A DNA stretch of 5,248 nt, taken from assembly GCA_027306745.1 (NCBI GenBank), contig DAHUZD010000112.1:1-5248 (forward strand). Reading direction: 5' to 3'. Below, piece by piece: positions 1,698 to 5,220 of the stretch (position 1 is the first letter of the stretch; each line of letters begins with the position of its first letter). The position numbers and the translations under genes were made by a program. The stretch comes from Acidobacteriaceae bacterium. GTDB lineage: Bacteria; Acidobacteriota; Terriglobia; Terriglobales; Acidobacteriaceae. The notes beneath the pieces were generated by a model that was not told where the DNA came from, searched no databases, and saw only the letters and a list, made by a program, of their open reading frames with translations.

Positions 1698-2039
1698 ATG
1701 CGCGAAATGCAATGGCGGGATGTCAACGGCCCCGGCAGCTCTTCCACCAAGAAGAGTGCGCAGCCGGGCGCGGTGCTGTGGCGTGAGCCGGGCCAGGCAT
1801 CGGATGCCTACGCCGTGCTGGAAGTGGCGCGTGATGCCAGCCCACAAACCATTCGCCGCGCCTATCGCACGCTGATGGAAAAATTCCATCCCGACCGCCA
1901 GCCGGAGCACTTGCGTTTGTGGGCTGGCGAGATGGCCCAGCAGATCAACTCGGCCTACGCGCTGCTGCGGGATGCGGCCCGCCGCGCCGCCTATGATGAC
2001 GCCTGTCTGATCCGCTGGAAGCATGACAGCTCCCTTTGA
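1698..2039 (+). CDS. Small J-domain (DnaJ-like) protein leading the ubiquitin-like cassette
   Basis: This is a 113-residue protein. Residues 1-35 are polar, low in predicted structure and Gly/Ser-rich. Residues about 36-103 are a J domain: DAYAVLEV opens helix I, RRAYRTLMEKF is helix II, the diagnostic HPD tripeptide is at 64-66, and helices III and IV follow (INSAYALLRD, then ARRAAYDDA). J domains bind Hsp70 (DnaK) through HPD and stimulate its ATPase. The Gly/Phe, zinc-finger and substrate-binding regions of full DnaJ are absent, so this is a minimal (type III) J protein whose client is unknown. An in-frame ATG at 1668 would add 10 residues but has no ribosome-binding site and overlaps a possible -10 element. 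The gene overlaps the E1-like gene by 17 nt, so translation is likely coupled. The J-domain assignment is secure; a role in the conjugation pathway is inferred from position only. Confidence 0.88.
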   Translation: MREMQWRDVNGPGSSSTKKSAQPGAVLWREPGQASDAYAVLEVARDASPQTIRRAYRTLMEKFHPDRQPEHLRLWAGEMAQQINSAYALLRDAARRAAYDDACLIRWKHDSSL

Positions 2040-3258
2040 ATTTCACGAAACCGCCGCAGAATTCTCAGGCGCAGATCGCTACGCACGGCAACGGTTGATT
2101 CCCGGCTGGCGGCAAGATCGCATCGCACAGGCGCGCATTCTGGTGGCGGGCGCGGGCGCGCTGGGCAATGAGGCCATCAAGAATCTGGCGCTGCTCGGCA
2201 TCGGGCATATCTGCATTGTGGACTTTGACCGCGTAGAGCCGAGCAACCTCGCCCGCTGCGTGTTGTTTCGCGCAGGCGACGTAGGCCAAGCCAAGGCGCA
2301 GGCCGCAGCGCGCGCCGCAATGGAAATCAATCCCGATGTGGAAGCCAGCGCGCTCGAAGGGGACGTTGGCTACGACTTGGGCGCAGGCGAGTTGCGCGGC
2401 TATGACCTTGTTCTAGGCTGCCTGGACAGCATTGGCGCGCGGTGGATGCTCAATCGTCAATGCCGCCGCGCTGGCGTGGCGTGGCTCAACGCAGGCATCA
2501 GCGCCAGTGTGGGTCAGGTGAGCTTGCACGCTCCGCTGGCGGGCGCGTGCTATGAGTGCACCATGACGCGCAGCCAGTGGCAGCGAATGAACGAACGCCG
2601 CTCCTGTCTGTTGGGGGGGCAGCGCCTGGCCCAAACCCAACCGCAGGCTGCATCGGTGTTGCCCGCTGCGTGGACGGCGGCTCTGCTGGTGCAGCAAGCC
2701 GTGGCCTGGCTGCACCGAGATGCCTTGGGCAGCGCAGGCGGCTTGCATCCGGGCGAGATGCTCTCCATCGACGTGAAGCAGAATGCCATGCAGGTGCTGC
2801 CACTTCCGCAGAATCCTCGCTGCGCAGCTCATGCCGCGGATGCAGAGTGGAGTGCGCCAGAGATTTTGCTGGAGTCCACGTCGGCGGCCCTTTGCGTGGA
2901 AAATATTTTGCGTGCGGTGCCGGATGCAGTTGCCTGGCTGCCGCCGCAGGCGATCGTCACCGGTTTGGAGTGCGCACAGTGCGGCACAGAGTCCATATTG
3001 TTGCCGCTGCGCCATCTGCATCGTGAGCGCTTGGCCTGTCCAAATTGCCCAACGCTGCGGCTGCCACGGCTGGCGCAGCCCGTGCAACGCGGCAGTGCGC
3101 TGGCGCAGGAAAAATTGCATCGCCTGGGAGTGCCGCATCAGGCGATACTGGATGTGCAGACAGAGCAGGGAATTCGGCGCGTGGTGTTGACCGTGCCGCG
3201 GCCCGGCTGCCTGAGGCCGGCGCGCACTGCGCAGCCAGCCCGCGCGGGAGCGGAGTAG
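2023..3258 (+). CDS. E1-like ubiquitin-activating-type enzyme (ThiF/MoeB fold) with extra C-terminal zinc ribbon
   Basis: This 411-residue protein is predicted to adenylate the C-terminal Gly of the adjacent ubiquitin-like protein using ATP and pass it to a cysteine. The adenylation domain (about 17-270) shows RYARQ at 19-23, a Rossmann nucleotide-binding loop VAGAGALG (41-48), VDFDRVEPSNLAR (66-78) with the conserved Asp, Asn and Arg, and DLVLGCLDS (128-136) whose D135 matches the Mg/ATP aspartate of MoeB. A structural zinc site is formed by C176-x2-C179 and, unusually, C267-x2-H270 instead of a second CxxC. C195 (in RRSCLL) lies where ThiF and MoeB have their conserved Cys. Beyond the core are C317-x2-C320 and C339-x2-C342 (a zinc ribbon) and a last section (about 357-393) containing LHRLGVPHQAILDV, possibly E2-binding like the ubiquitin-fold domain of E1s. 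ATG 2023 is the only sensible start: an in-frame TGA lies at 2008. The ribosome-binding site is poor, so translation probably depends on the overlapping J-domain gene. The stop abuts the next ATG. Confidence 0.93.
   Translation: MTAPFEFHETAAEFSGADRYARQRLIPGWRQDRIAQARILVAGAGALGNEAIKNLALLGIGHICIVDFDRVEPSNLARCVLFRAGDVGQAKAQAAARAAMEINPDVEASALEGDVGYDLGAGELRGYDLVLGCLDSIGARWMLNRQCRRAGVAWLNAGISASVGQVSLHAPLAGACYECTMTRSQWQRMNERRSCLLGGQRLAQTQPQAASVLPAAWTAALLVQQAVAWLHRDALGSAGGLHPGEMLSIDVKQNAMQVLPLPQNPRCAAHAADAEWSAPEILLESTSAALCVENILRAVPDAVAWLPPQAIVTGLECAQCGTESILLPLRHLHRERLACPNCPTLRLPRLAQPVQRGSALAQEKLHRLGVPHQAILDVQTEQGIRRVVLTVPRPGCLRPARTAQPARAGAE
3246..3255 (+). promoter_or_regulatory. Shine-Dalgarno region of the ubiquitin-like gene
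   Basis: GGGAGCGGAG lies at the very end of the E1-like gene. The GGGAG part is 8 nt from ATG 3259, so the ubiquitin-like protein has a good independent ribosome-binding site, unlike the E1. This may allow the modifier to be made in excess over its enzyme. Confidence 0.6.
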
Positions 3259-3513
3259 ATGCAGAGCGTTTCCATTTTTCTTTCGATGTACGACCGCAGC
3301 CGCCGTGCGGAGGTTACCTTGCCGTCATCGGTGACCGTGGGCGAGTTGATGGAGCAGTGCCAGCAGCGTTGGTCGCTGCCAGAGGATTCCTTCATCCTGC
3401 GCGATCTGGGGCGCAATCGCGTGCTGCTGGATCACGAAACAATTGAAGAAGCCGAAATCGCCAATGGCGCAGAGCTGCAAATCTTTCCTTTGGTCGAGGG
3501 CGGCGCAGCGTGA
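3259..3513 (+). CDS. YukD-type ubiquitin-like modifier protein with C-terminal Gly-Gly-Ala-Ala
   Basis: This 84-residue protein has the length and pattern of a single beta-grasp (ubiquitin-like) domain. Strand 1 is at about 3-10 (SVSIFLSM), strand 2 at about 16-21, then a helix (VTVGELMEQCQQRW, 25-38), strand 3 at 46-50, LLDHETIEEAEIANG (56-70), and a final strand ELQIFPLV (72-79). The NGAELQI ending and the TVGEL helix start resemble YukD/EsaB-like Ubls. The tail is VEGGAA: Gly81-Gly82 followed by two alanines. In conjugated Ubls a terminal Gly-Gly is adenylated by E1, so removal of Ala-Ala, most likely by the JAMM protease encoded two genes on, would activate it. The gene starts directly after the E1 stop and its TGA overlaps the GTG of the E2-like gene. 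Modifier identity is strong from context; targets are unknown. A non-conjugated YukD-like role is the alternative, made unlikely by the neighbours. Confidence 0.88.
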   Translation: MQSVSIFLSMYDRSRRAEVTLPSSVTVGELMEQCQQRWSLPEDSFILRDLGRNRVLLDHETIEEAEIANGAELQIFPLVEGGAA

Positions 3514-4040
3514 GTACCGTGCGAGAGCGGCGGTTGCGTCATGACCACGAAGCGTTGTTGCGGCTCTGTGAGCAGACGCATCAGCGCATCGCTGTGGAGC
3601 GCGCTGAGGGCGACCCGCCCAGCGTCTACGTGCTGGCATTGCATGGCCGCAGCGTGGCTTGCCTGCAAGACGGCCAGCCGCTCTACACCACGCGGCCGCG
3701 CGTGCGTATTCAGTTTCCAGCGCTGTATCCGGCAGAGCCGCCGCAGGCCTCGGTGCTCTCGCCCATCTTTCATCCACACATCTGGCCCAACCGCATGGTT
3801 TGCCTGGGCAAGTGGAGTCCGGCAGAAAAGCTGGACAGCCTGGTGCTGCGCATCGCTTCCATTCTCATCTTCGATCCGGCGCAGTTTAACTGGAAGAGCG
3901 TGGCCAACCATGAGGCCGCCGCCTGGGCGCAGCATCATTTGCAGCTTTTTCCTCTCGATGATCTTTTTCAGTCTGTGCCACAACAGCCCTCATCGGATCG
4001 ACTGTTGCAGTGGAGTGAAGGGAAGCGCTCGCATGGTTGA
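3510..4040 (+). CDS. E2-like ubiquitin-conjugating enzyme (UBC fold)
   Basis: This 176-residue protein is predicted to accept the activated modifier from E1 on a cysteine and transfer it to targets. The N-terminal helix (about 3-27) and strands (38-44, 49-52, 63-69) lead to YPAEPPQASV (73-82), the equivalent of the E2 YPxxPP motif. Then FHPHIWPNRMVCLG (87-100) matches the E2 active-site segment, with C98 exactly 10 residues after H88, as in eukaryotic E2s (HPN to catalytic Cys). KWSPAEKLDSLVLRIASILI (101-120) matches the following W-S-P and helix 2. FDPAQFNWKSVANHEAAAWA (121-140) matches the closing 'N..A' helix. The HPN asparagine is replaced by His90. GTG 3510 overlaps the upstream TGA (GTGA) and is preceded by GAGGG about 9 nt away. 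Residues 141-176 are a variable tail. The gene overlaps the JAMM gene by 8 nt. An E2-fold without activity is possible but unlikely, given the cysteine. Confidence 0.9.
   Translation: MSTVRERRLRHDHEALLRLCEQTHQRIAVERAEGDPPSVYVLALHGRSVACLQDGQPLYTTRPRVRIQFPALYPAEPPQASVLSPIFHPHIWPNRMVCLGKWSPAEKLDSLVLRIASILIFDPAQFNWKSVANHEAAAWAQHHLQLFPLDDLFQSVPQQPSSDRLLQWSEGKRSHG
4018..4025 (+). promoter_or_regulatory. Shine-Dalgarno sequence deciding the JAMM start
   Basis: AAGGGAAG lies 7 nt before ATG 4033, inside the end of the E2-like gene. It picks this ATG although the reading frame is open much further upstream. Confidence 0.55.
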
Positions 4041-4626
4041 GTTCAACCGCCAGAGCGAAACCGCAGCGCCGTGGGCATGGAACGATCTGCAACGCAACGA
4101 ACCGCTGGAGACGCGCCCGCTGGAGATGTTTCTACACGATGAGCCTCCCGCACCGGCCCCAACGCCCACGCCACATCAGGCAGGCTTCGCTCTGGTGCTG
4201 CCCCGCTCCCTGCGCGCGCAGATGATCGAACACGCGGGCCGCTGGGTGACGCATGAGCAGGCCGGCATTCGTTTGGGACGCGCCTACCAGGATCCGCGCG
4301 GATTTCAATTCACAGTGCTGGCCGCCGCTCTGCCCGTGGAAGATGCCGAAGCCAGCATCGCCCAGGTCAAGATGCGCGCCGCGGCCTGGCCAGCGATATG
4401 GAAGGGATTGCAGCAGAACCCCGGCCAGCAAATCATCGGCTGGTACCACTCCCACCCCGGTTATGGAATTTTTCTTTCCGCCACCGATCGCACCACGCAG
4501 AATGCCTACTTCGCCGCGCCGTGGCAGGTCGCCGTGGTCGTTGATCCTGTGCGTGGAGAGTTTGGCGTCTTCGCTGGATGCGATCCAGACCCTGTGCCCG
4601 ATGCGGCCATTTTTTCAGTGGCGTAG
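4033..4626 (+). CDS. JAB/JAMM (MPN+) metalloprotease, predicted deconjugase and Ubl-processing enzyme
   Basis: This 197-residue protein has a complete JAMM zinc-protease signature: catalytic Glu75 in HEQAGIRLG (74-82), and H139-S-H141-x7-S149-x2-D152 in WYHSHPGYGIFLSATD (137-152). Eukaryotic and bacterial JAMM enzymes use these residues to hydrolyse the bond after the Gly-Gly of ubiquitin-like proteins or to mature them. The MPN core runs from about 54 to 183; IIGWYHSHP and the strand QVAVVVDP (165-172) are typical. Residues 1-50 are an extra N-terminal region without clear fold, ending in a Pro-rich linker (PPAPAPTPTP, 38-47). It is the last gene of the cassette, overlaps the E2-like gene by 8 nt, and so probably trims the neighbouring Ubl (removing Ala-Ala) and/or reverses its conjugation. 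Translation in this frame can be extended far upstream, but that part is antisensical to UBC-gene coding and ATG 4033 has the ribosome-binding site. The activity call rests on motif identity; the substrate is inferred. Confidence 0.93.
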   Translation: MVEFNRQSETAAPWAWNDLQRNEPLETRPLEMFLHDEPPAPAPTPTPHQAGFALVLPRSLRAQMIEHAGRWVTHEQAGIRLGRAYQDPRGFQFTVLAAALPVEDAEASIAQVKMRAAAWPAIWKGLQQNPGQQIIGWYHSHPGYGIFLSATDRTTQNAYFAAPWQVAVVVDPVRGEFGVFAGCDPDPVPDAAIFSVA

Positions 4627-5220
4627 CGCGCCTTCGGCGTGCGGTTCCAGCAGGCGCGGCTCCAACGGATGCGCCACGCCGCAGTGGACACACTTGCCAG
4701 CCAGATGTTCGCGCAGCCATGCGCCCGTCTCTTCGTGATAGCCCGCTCCGCAGCGGCAGACGAGGATCGTTTCGCCCGCTTGGAAGGGGGCTCCATCAAT
4801 CGGATCGGCCACGATGCCGCCGAGCGCTGTCTCCTCAAAAAACTGTACGGGTGAGCCGGGCACTTCTGGCGGCGGCTCTTCATAGTGTGGACGGGTGGGT
4901 TCGATGGCTCCGCTGAGCGGCAATAGAGTCTGTTCGGCGGCGGGCGGACGGCTGCGAGGTTGCGGTGGCGGCTGTGGCGGAATCAGCGTGAAGCTGGGCC
5001 GAGTGTAGGTCTCCGGCTCCGGGTCAAAATCCTCCACGTCTTCCCGCGGTTCGTCCTTGGCGGCAACGCGAGTTGTCATGCGCACGCGCGTCAGCAGCCG
5101 TAGGGCGATGGCCACCGTAGCCGCCAGCAGGGCCAGGTCCACGGCCAGCAGTACGTGCAAAACCGGCAGCGCGAGTGCAAAGAGTGCAGGCATGGAGTGG
5201 AGGATTCCGCTTGCAATCAT
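4615..5220 (-). CDS. Membrane-anchored protein with Pro-rich linker and C-terminal RING/treble-clef-like zinc module (start uncertain)
   Basis: I do not recognise a named family. Read from ATG 5218-5220 it has 201 residues. Residues about 11-43 are strongly hydrophobic (one long or two short membrane segments) and are followed by a basic stretch (RLLTRVR, then RVAAK). Residues about 57-125 are acidic then Pro-rich and probably disordered. The C-terminal part (about 133-184) holds C155-R-C157-G, YH at 161-162, a WL pair at 168-169, and C177-V-H-C180-G. The order C-x-C, YH, WL, CxxC resembles the second half of a RING or related treble-clef finger; the expected first CxxC is absent and DPIDGAPF stands in its place. 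A four-ligand zinc ribbon is the simpler alternative. The gene converges on the JAMM gene with 12 nt of 3' overlap. No good ribosome-binding site precedes the ATG, and the frame stays open to base 5248, so the true start may be outside the window. A link to the conjugation pathway is inference. Confidence 0.75.
   Translation of the reverse strand: MIASGILHSMPALFALALPVLHVLLAVDLALLAATVAIALRLLTRVRMTTRVAAKDEPREDVEDFDPEPETYTRPSFTLIPPQPPPQPRSRPPAAEQTLLPLSGAIEPTRPHYEEPPPEVPGSPVQFFEETALGGIVADPIDGAPFQAGETILVCRCGAGYHEETGAWLREHLAGKCVHCGVAHPLEPRLLEPHAEGALRH

Follow-up and report, generated by a model that had tools for sequence, protein, structure and literature searches.

A six-gene ubiquitin-like conjugation cassette of an Acidobacteriaceae bacterium, with type VI secretion genes beside it in relatives

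Which proteins would be modified by a compact set of ubiquitin-like conjugation genes in an acidobacterium, and for what process is the set kept? This question is raised by a stretch of 5,248 nucleotides from an Acidobacteriaceae bacterium (the window), which is an entire contig (DAHUZD010000112.1; C214 of genome G000 in our numbering) of a fragmentary genome of 1.94 Mb in 435 contigs, 72% complete. A sequence-only reading had described four abutting or overlapping genes at 2023..4626, encoding an E1, a ubiquitin-like protein (Ubl), an E2 and a JAMM protease, as a complete conjugation cassette, and had left its role open between defence and housekeeping. The coordinates were confirmed and all four components are present, but a J-domain gene and a gene for a RING/U-box-like membrane protein had been missed, and the cassette is composed of six genes, not four (Table 1). 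As for its role, the separation from the known Bil systems stood, while the gene context in relatives suggests a third option, control of the type VI secretion system (T6SS).

The neighbourhoods of the relatives carry this suggestion. A gene-neighbourhood survey, proposed earlier as a check, revealed that homologues of the four genes occur together and that their order is kept in four other genomes. At these four loci, the J-domain, E1, Ubl, E2 and JAMM genes are followed by the convergent RING-like gene and then by TssJ-like, TssK, TssL, TssM and TssA genes and further T6SS genes; at locus L079, one extra gene lies between the JAMM and RING-like genes. Since the 35 E2 homologues found by the homologue search are 37-96% identical to the window protein and the gene order is kept in four other genomes, a chance grouping is excluded. 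TssK, TssL, TssM and TssA of locus L010 are supported by Pfam, as are TssB, TssC, Hcp, gp25/TssE, TssF, TssG, VgrG and a DUF4280 protein in the cluster of genome G032, and TssG and VgrG in that of G728; the TssJ-like protein, which Pfam does not match, is named for its place and size. No kinase, FHA protein or Clp ATPase was found among the subset of cluster proteins checked by Pfam. On the opposite flank, the loci have nothing in common except a generic HlyD match between two of them. In G032 and G728, the cassette-linked TssK is the sole TssK of the genome. Carriers of the window-type cassette include Edaphobacter modestus DSM 18101 and Candidatus Angelobacter, the locus of the latter being that of G766 (identical protein matches). 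G766 holds two T6SSs, the cassette-linked one on contig C64 and a canonical one with ClpV on C155. Among the literature matches listed, all open-access, no report links a T6SS to a Ubl-conjugation cassette.

The window itself stops 28 nt past the start of the RING-like gene, short of the point where the T6SS genes of the relatives begin. TssK was not found in its 72% complete genome, and another contig of that genome, C430 (6691 nt), encodes TssL (3' part), TssM, TssA, TssB and TssC (5' part) in the same order as in the relatives. The best matches of C430 TssM are in cassette-linked loci (760-841 bits, 33-36% identity), with cassette-free G053 close (747 bits), and C430 TssB is nearest to G053 (71%), followed by Angelobacter (69%). 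Judging by the spacing in the relatives, the window contig and C430 could flank a gap of about 2.5-2.8 kb in a single locus.

When the class was sampled in one draw, E2 matches were found in 32 of 399 genomes. Only G000, G766, G728 and G032 exceeded 200 bits and the next best match scored 105 bits; the window-type E2s form a small subfamily. Five of the 32 genomes (G584, G664, G666, G713 and G774) are represented by short stretches only, and in G603 and G695, with two E2 places each, the long stretch covers the weaker place only.

Table 1. Genes of the conjugation cassette in the window
Feature	Positions	Strand	Basis
J-domain protein, DnaJ domain only, HPD motif	1698..2039	+	Pfam DnaJ E=3e-17
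E1-like adenylating enzyme, ThiF fold, 411 aa	2023..3258	+	PF00899 E=5e-50
Ubiquitin-like modifier, 84 aa, C-terminus EGG-AA	3259..3513	+	Pfam near cut-off, AlphaFold model
E2-like UBC-fold protein, 176 aa	3510..4040	+	UQ_con PF00179 E=5e-10, over cut-off
JAMM/JAB metalloprotease, 197 aa	4033..4626	+	Prok-JAB E=2e-9, over cut-off
RING/U-box-like membrane protein, candidate E3 (predicted)	4615..5220	-	Model; convergent gene

The five plus-strand genes abut or overlap, and the sixth overlaps the 3' end of the JAMM gene. The J-domain open reading frame is open from 1668 and overlaps the E1 start by 17 nt; its start is probably at 1698, because the N-termini of the relatives suggest it. For the JAMM gene, the start at 3541 in the list of open reading frames was rejected as spurious, and 4033 agrees with the homologues. 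Upstream of the cassette (7-1514), the window encodes an EmrA/HlyD-like adaptor and what is, judged by eye, the end of an outer-membrane efflux protein; this flank is not kept beside the four relatives, bar one distant HlyD match in L036.

The two partner proteins show conserved features. An HPD motif occurs in each of the five J-domain sequences (window and four loci), at an equivalent position within the module. For the sixth protein, Pfam gave no match at E values up to 1; it comprises an N-terminal helix predicted to be transmembrane, a disordered linker and a C-terminal domain that models as RING/U-box-like (structure model and VIA-align). The pattern of this domain is DP[IV]DG...CxCGxxY...W...CxxC, in which the CxC and CxxC alone are invariant (12/12 rows) and DP[IV]DG replaces the first site; the full set of eight zinc ligands of a canonical RING, arranged in two sites, is absent. 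Two pairs of ligands are missing from bacterial RINGs according to PMC11354881. The membrane-anchored RING/U-box-like protein is, on the strength of its model, a candidate E3.

The four core proteins are intact by several measures, and the motifs described earlier for them are borne out. In profile searches, the DnaJ, ThiF, UQ_con and Prok-JAB matches all exceed the Pfam cut-offs, and the Ubl lies near them. First, the E1 has a single ThiF domain (residues 23-268), and Cys195, which we take to match the acyl-carrying cysteine of ThiF, is identical in 6/6 aligned E1s (one partial), as are CxxC at 176/179, CxxH at 267/270 and an extra C-terminal CxxC pair at 317/320 and 339/342. Second, the Ubl falls just under the Pfam cut-offs for ubiquitin and YukD and just over that for ThiS (E=4e-5 to 7e-5), and its AlphaFold model has a mean predicted local distance difference test (pLDDT) score of 91 with strands and helix in beta-beta-alpha-beta-beta order, residues 81-84 scoring below 50; the Ubl is, by this model and by Pfam, a beta-grasp protein. 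In the window Ubl, Gly81-Gly82 is followed by Ala-Ala. Among 35 aligned Ubls (the window, the four loci and 30 of 31 search matches, the window-identical one omitted), EGG followed by 0-7 variable residues occurs in 34, of which six have no tail, and the only row without EGG is a distant verrucomicrobial protein; the variable tail after the double glycine is presumably removable. Third, Cys98, the active-site residue of the E2, is identical in all 24 aligned rows (the window and 23 of the 35 homologues), and the same holds for His88-Pro89-His90 (window 3771-3779). The classical E2 motif is HPN, and the HPH found here therefore means that asparagine is replaced by histidine in this E2 subfamily. 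Finally, the JAMM residues Glu75, His139, His141 and Asp152 (HxHP...SxTD) are kept in 6/6 proteins.

Because an E1, an E2, a tailed Ubl and a JAMM protease are combined, reversible conjugation is predicted, and we are surer of conjugation itself than of what it targets. Both the membrane-anchored RING-like partner and the synteny on the T6SS side suggest that the substrate lies at the T6SS base, and the J-protein points to Hsp70-assisted remodelling of the tagged parts. Based on this context, we suggest that the cassette is a dedicated T6SS regulator, which would act at the inner membrane, tagging and untagging proteins of the T6SS or associated with it, and on balance we consider this likely. 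From the genes, motifs, folds and synteny observed, we infer the following steps and substrate. The JAMM protease would first cut off the two Ubl residues beyond Gly81-Gly82, the E1 would adenylate the exposed Gly-Gly end and load the Ubl on Cys195, and the E2 would take it over on Cys98. The RING/U-box-like protein would then hold the charged E2 near the T6SS base (TssJ-L-M and TssK), where the tag may be passed to a component or a regulator. The J-domain protein may recruit DnaK to the machine once it is tagged, assembled or spent, and the JAMM protease would take the tag off again.

Here, we need to consider several observations that weigh against a dedicated T6SS role. In G001, a relative of the same genus (76% complete), E1, Ubl, E2 and JAMM genes are followed by GHMP kinase and MatE genes, and the RING-like gene, TssK and TssC were not found in that genome. 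Conversely, related T6SSs occur in eight genomes (TssK 240-524 bits against the cassette-linked profile) that gave no E2 match in the 399-genome search and have no cassette gene in the stretches covered, one of which starts just before TssK and two of which reach only about 1 kb past the TssJ-like gene. The related T6SS lineage without the cassette is seen at L173-L178 (G053, G743, G497, G037, G685 and G762). In addition, the TssM tree places cassette-free T6SSs inside the cassette-linked group, so that loss, transfer or both must be assumed; the tree gives no support to a single-clade origin of the cassette-linked T6SS, which was rejected. These observations favour general protein modification, in quality control or signalling, with the T6SS adjacency representing one inherited or transferred island, and linkage alone may conserve gene order. 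Nevertheless, we regard this explanation as unlikely, since four other genomes preserve order and orientation despite strong divergence of the proteins, and the other flank is not preserved.

Two other links between the cassette and the T6SS were rejected. One is that the cassette substitutes for ClpV, the ATPase that recycles the sheath. G032 and G728 have no match over the TIGR03345 (ClpV) cut-off (best 858 and 865 versus 885 bits; scores of this height came up in almost every genome searched and probably represent ClpB), and ClpV exceeds the cut-off in 6 of 15 genomes searched, including G766, where it lies on the contig that carries the second, canonical T6SS. Among the eight cassette-free genomes with a related T6SS, four have ClpV over the cut-off and G037, G053, G554 and G578 (57% complete) do not; since cassette-free G037, G053 and G554 lack ClpV too, its absence does not single out genomes with the cassette. 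The other is an altered N-terminal LLDxIV motif of TssC as a cassette signature; the motif is changed in three cassette-linked TssC proteins and reads LLDRII in the window's genome.

A second type of cassette also bears on general protein modification. Weak E2 matches led to ten loci that encode an E1, a RING-like membrane protein, a Ubl and an E2. The membrane protein has two RING-like cysteine clusters (by eye) and no Pfam match, the Ubl has 86 aa and ends in Asn-Gly in the five read, and the E2s keep HPN in the five read, in contrast to HPH in the window subfamily. In eight of the ten loci (L124-L131; G106, G159, G660, G695, G603, G676, G525 and G570), the cassette adjoins FHA-like, VWA, TssB-like (PF05591 E=3e-4, below the cut-off) and TssC-like (PF17541 E=1e-19) genes; the contigs of G741 and G476 stop at the VWA or FHA gene. 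Because the TssB-like, TssC-like, FHA and VWA profiles were built from G106, seven of these eight matches are independent. A ClpV/ClpB-like ATPase (708-740 bits, below the cut-off) lies 12-21 kb from the E2 in five of the six genomes searched among these eight. The JAMM profile found no JAMM gene in the 20-kb stretch of seven of these eight loci and gave for G570 no more than a weak match, located at the distal end of the stretch; G476 has a JAMM gene, and no Ubl was found there. Altogether, T6SS-like genes are found in 12 of 36 tabulated loci (four window-type and eight second-type), and in none of the stretches read for the remaining 24, which include G741, G476 and G631 (no E2 ORF); L041, L048 and L050-L055 are outside this table. 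Coincidence is thus a poor explanation for the second, unlike cassette, and the other tabulated E2 cassettes are not beside T6SS genes, both of which speak against general modification.

Other E2 loci were seen as well. A further acidobacterial arrangement, E1-JAB-...-E2, occurs at L043 (7346-8979), L037, L038, L047, L049 and L140-L143, in whose stretches T6SS genes were not found; L043 includes a transmembrane protein whose tail is FHA-like and another protein whose N-terminus bears a PHD/RING-like cysteine cluster (by eye). L042 (8427-11397) and L044 (9249-10444) hold E1-E2 operons with a Ubl ending in GG and a short tail and small transmembrane proteins with CxxC pairs; the gene next to the L042 operon presumably resembles RtcB. 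In verrucomicrobial L012, a Ubl ending in HGC, an E2 and a JAMM protein are encoded, and no E1, J-domain or T6SS gene was found by profiles.

That two dissimilar cassettes each adjoin a T6SS-like cluster, the clusters being dissimilar as well, argues for a functional link. It is possible, although we stop short of calling it probable, that an E1-E2-RING pathway dedicated to a contractile weapon was built at least twice in bacteria, in which Ubl put on T6SS parts by a membrane-anchored RING/U-box-like E3 would time building, firing and dismantling, the J-protein would pass the tagged parts on to Hsp70 and the JAMM protease would reset the switch. If true, this would be a bacterial counterpart of the ubiquitin control of a membrane machine.

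Anti-phage defence of the Bil kind, with the Ubl attached to virion proteins, is distinctly less probable than general modification. Bil tags phage tail parts and the T6SS is tail-like; the same four activities are present, and the E1 gives partial PADLOC matches to E1-E2 models (best 2e-18) and to BilD (1e-6, best stretch residues 38-100). According to PMC11354881, BilABCD likewise combines Ubl, E2, JAMM and E1 in one operon, but BilA has two Ubl domains as against the single 84-aa Ubl of the window, BilD has an inactive and an active adenylation domain as against one in the window E1, and the CEHH pattern of BilB (Cys138, Glu144, His146 and His151) is absent from the window E2, where positions +6, +8 and +13 after Cys98 are Pro, Glu and Leu. 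That source, as far as available, describes no RING-like, J-domain or T6SS partner; the window has the first two, and its relatives have T6SS synteny. Bil membership was therefore rejected on the single Ubl, the missing CEHH and the one adenylation domain, in agreement with the mismatch to Bil operons noted earlier. Phage and mobile-element marks, not seen in the sequence-only reading, did not emerge: 78 pattern matches in viral contigs included none encoding a relative, and the plasmid search gave one record, 28% identical.

That conjugation enzymes modify a T6SS effector, or that the machine delivers the Ubl itself, is very improbable; the cassette does adjoin clusters with VgrG and, in G032, the DUF4280 protein, which we take to be PAAR-like, but the RING-like partner is predicted in the donor membrane. 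Least credible of all is a sulfur-carrier Ubl (ThiS/MoaD-like) with a ThiF/MoeB-type activator for cofactor or tRNA thiolation, since the E1 and Ubl, although they score against ThiF, MoeB, ThiS and MoaD models, reach no NCBIfam cut-off among the matches listed (for the E1, the best 25 of 26; TIGR02356 129.8 of 275.25 bits), the genome has another, stronger ThiF-family gene (C307), and the combination of a JAMM protease and a RING-like protein with an E2 whose Cys98 is conserved has, to our knowledge, no part in sulfur transfer.

Dedicated T6SS regulation thus remains the reading we prefer. We know of no substrates for most bacterial Ubl cassettes, and synteny with one defined machine gives a short list of candidates here, namely TssJ, TssK, TssL, TssM, TssA, TssB and TssC. 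Edaphobacter modestus DSM 18101, a named and deposited strain, carries the whole locus, which makes the question directly testable. If the reading is true, it would add a new layer of post-translational control for the T6SS and a bacterial membrane-bound RING-like E3 with a J-protein partner.

Among known systems, YukD-like Ubls are reportedly encoded together with E1, E2, JAB and RING finger E3 proteins in prokaryotic RING/YukD-like systems (Burroughs, Iyer and Aravind, 2011), with no T6SS link known to us from that account; the window Ubl also scores with YukD. The window E1 and JAB domains score against type II cyclic-oligonucleotide-based antiphage signalling system (CBASS; Cap2 and Cap3) and 6A-MBL models, the NCBIfam 6A-MBL match being below the cut-off. 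Type II CBASS and 6A-MBL have the E2 and E1 in one chain and are not known to use a Ubl; in contrast, the E1, E2 and JAMM proteins of the window are separate and a Ubl is present, and Pfam matched none of the window proteins to a nucleotidyltransferase or a metallo-beta-lactamase. Bacterial operons with E1, E2, Ubl and JAB genes were predicted by Iyer et al. 2006 (rows 6a-6e; PMC1779556), and they share with the window a glycine-ended Ubl and predicted conjugation. The nearest is row 6d, an operon in which the Ubl, JAB, E1-like and E2-like proteins each have their own gene, but an alpha-helical protein is encoded in addition and the JAB carries an alpha+beta domain at its N-terminus (PMC1779556); neither DnaJ nor type VI secretion is mentioned in the portion of the text available. 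The cascade of Caldiarchaeum subterraneum (PMC5654768) resembles the window in its compact E1, E2 and ubiquitin genes with a small RING protein. It is archaeal, whereas in the window the RING-like domain is anchored in the membrane and has half of the zinc ligands, and the window locus adds a J-protein and, in relatives, T6SS neighbours.

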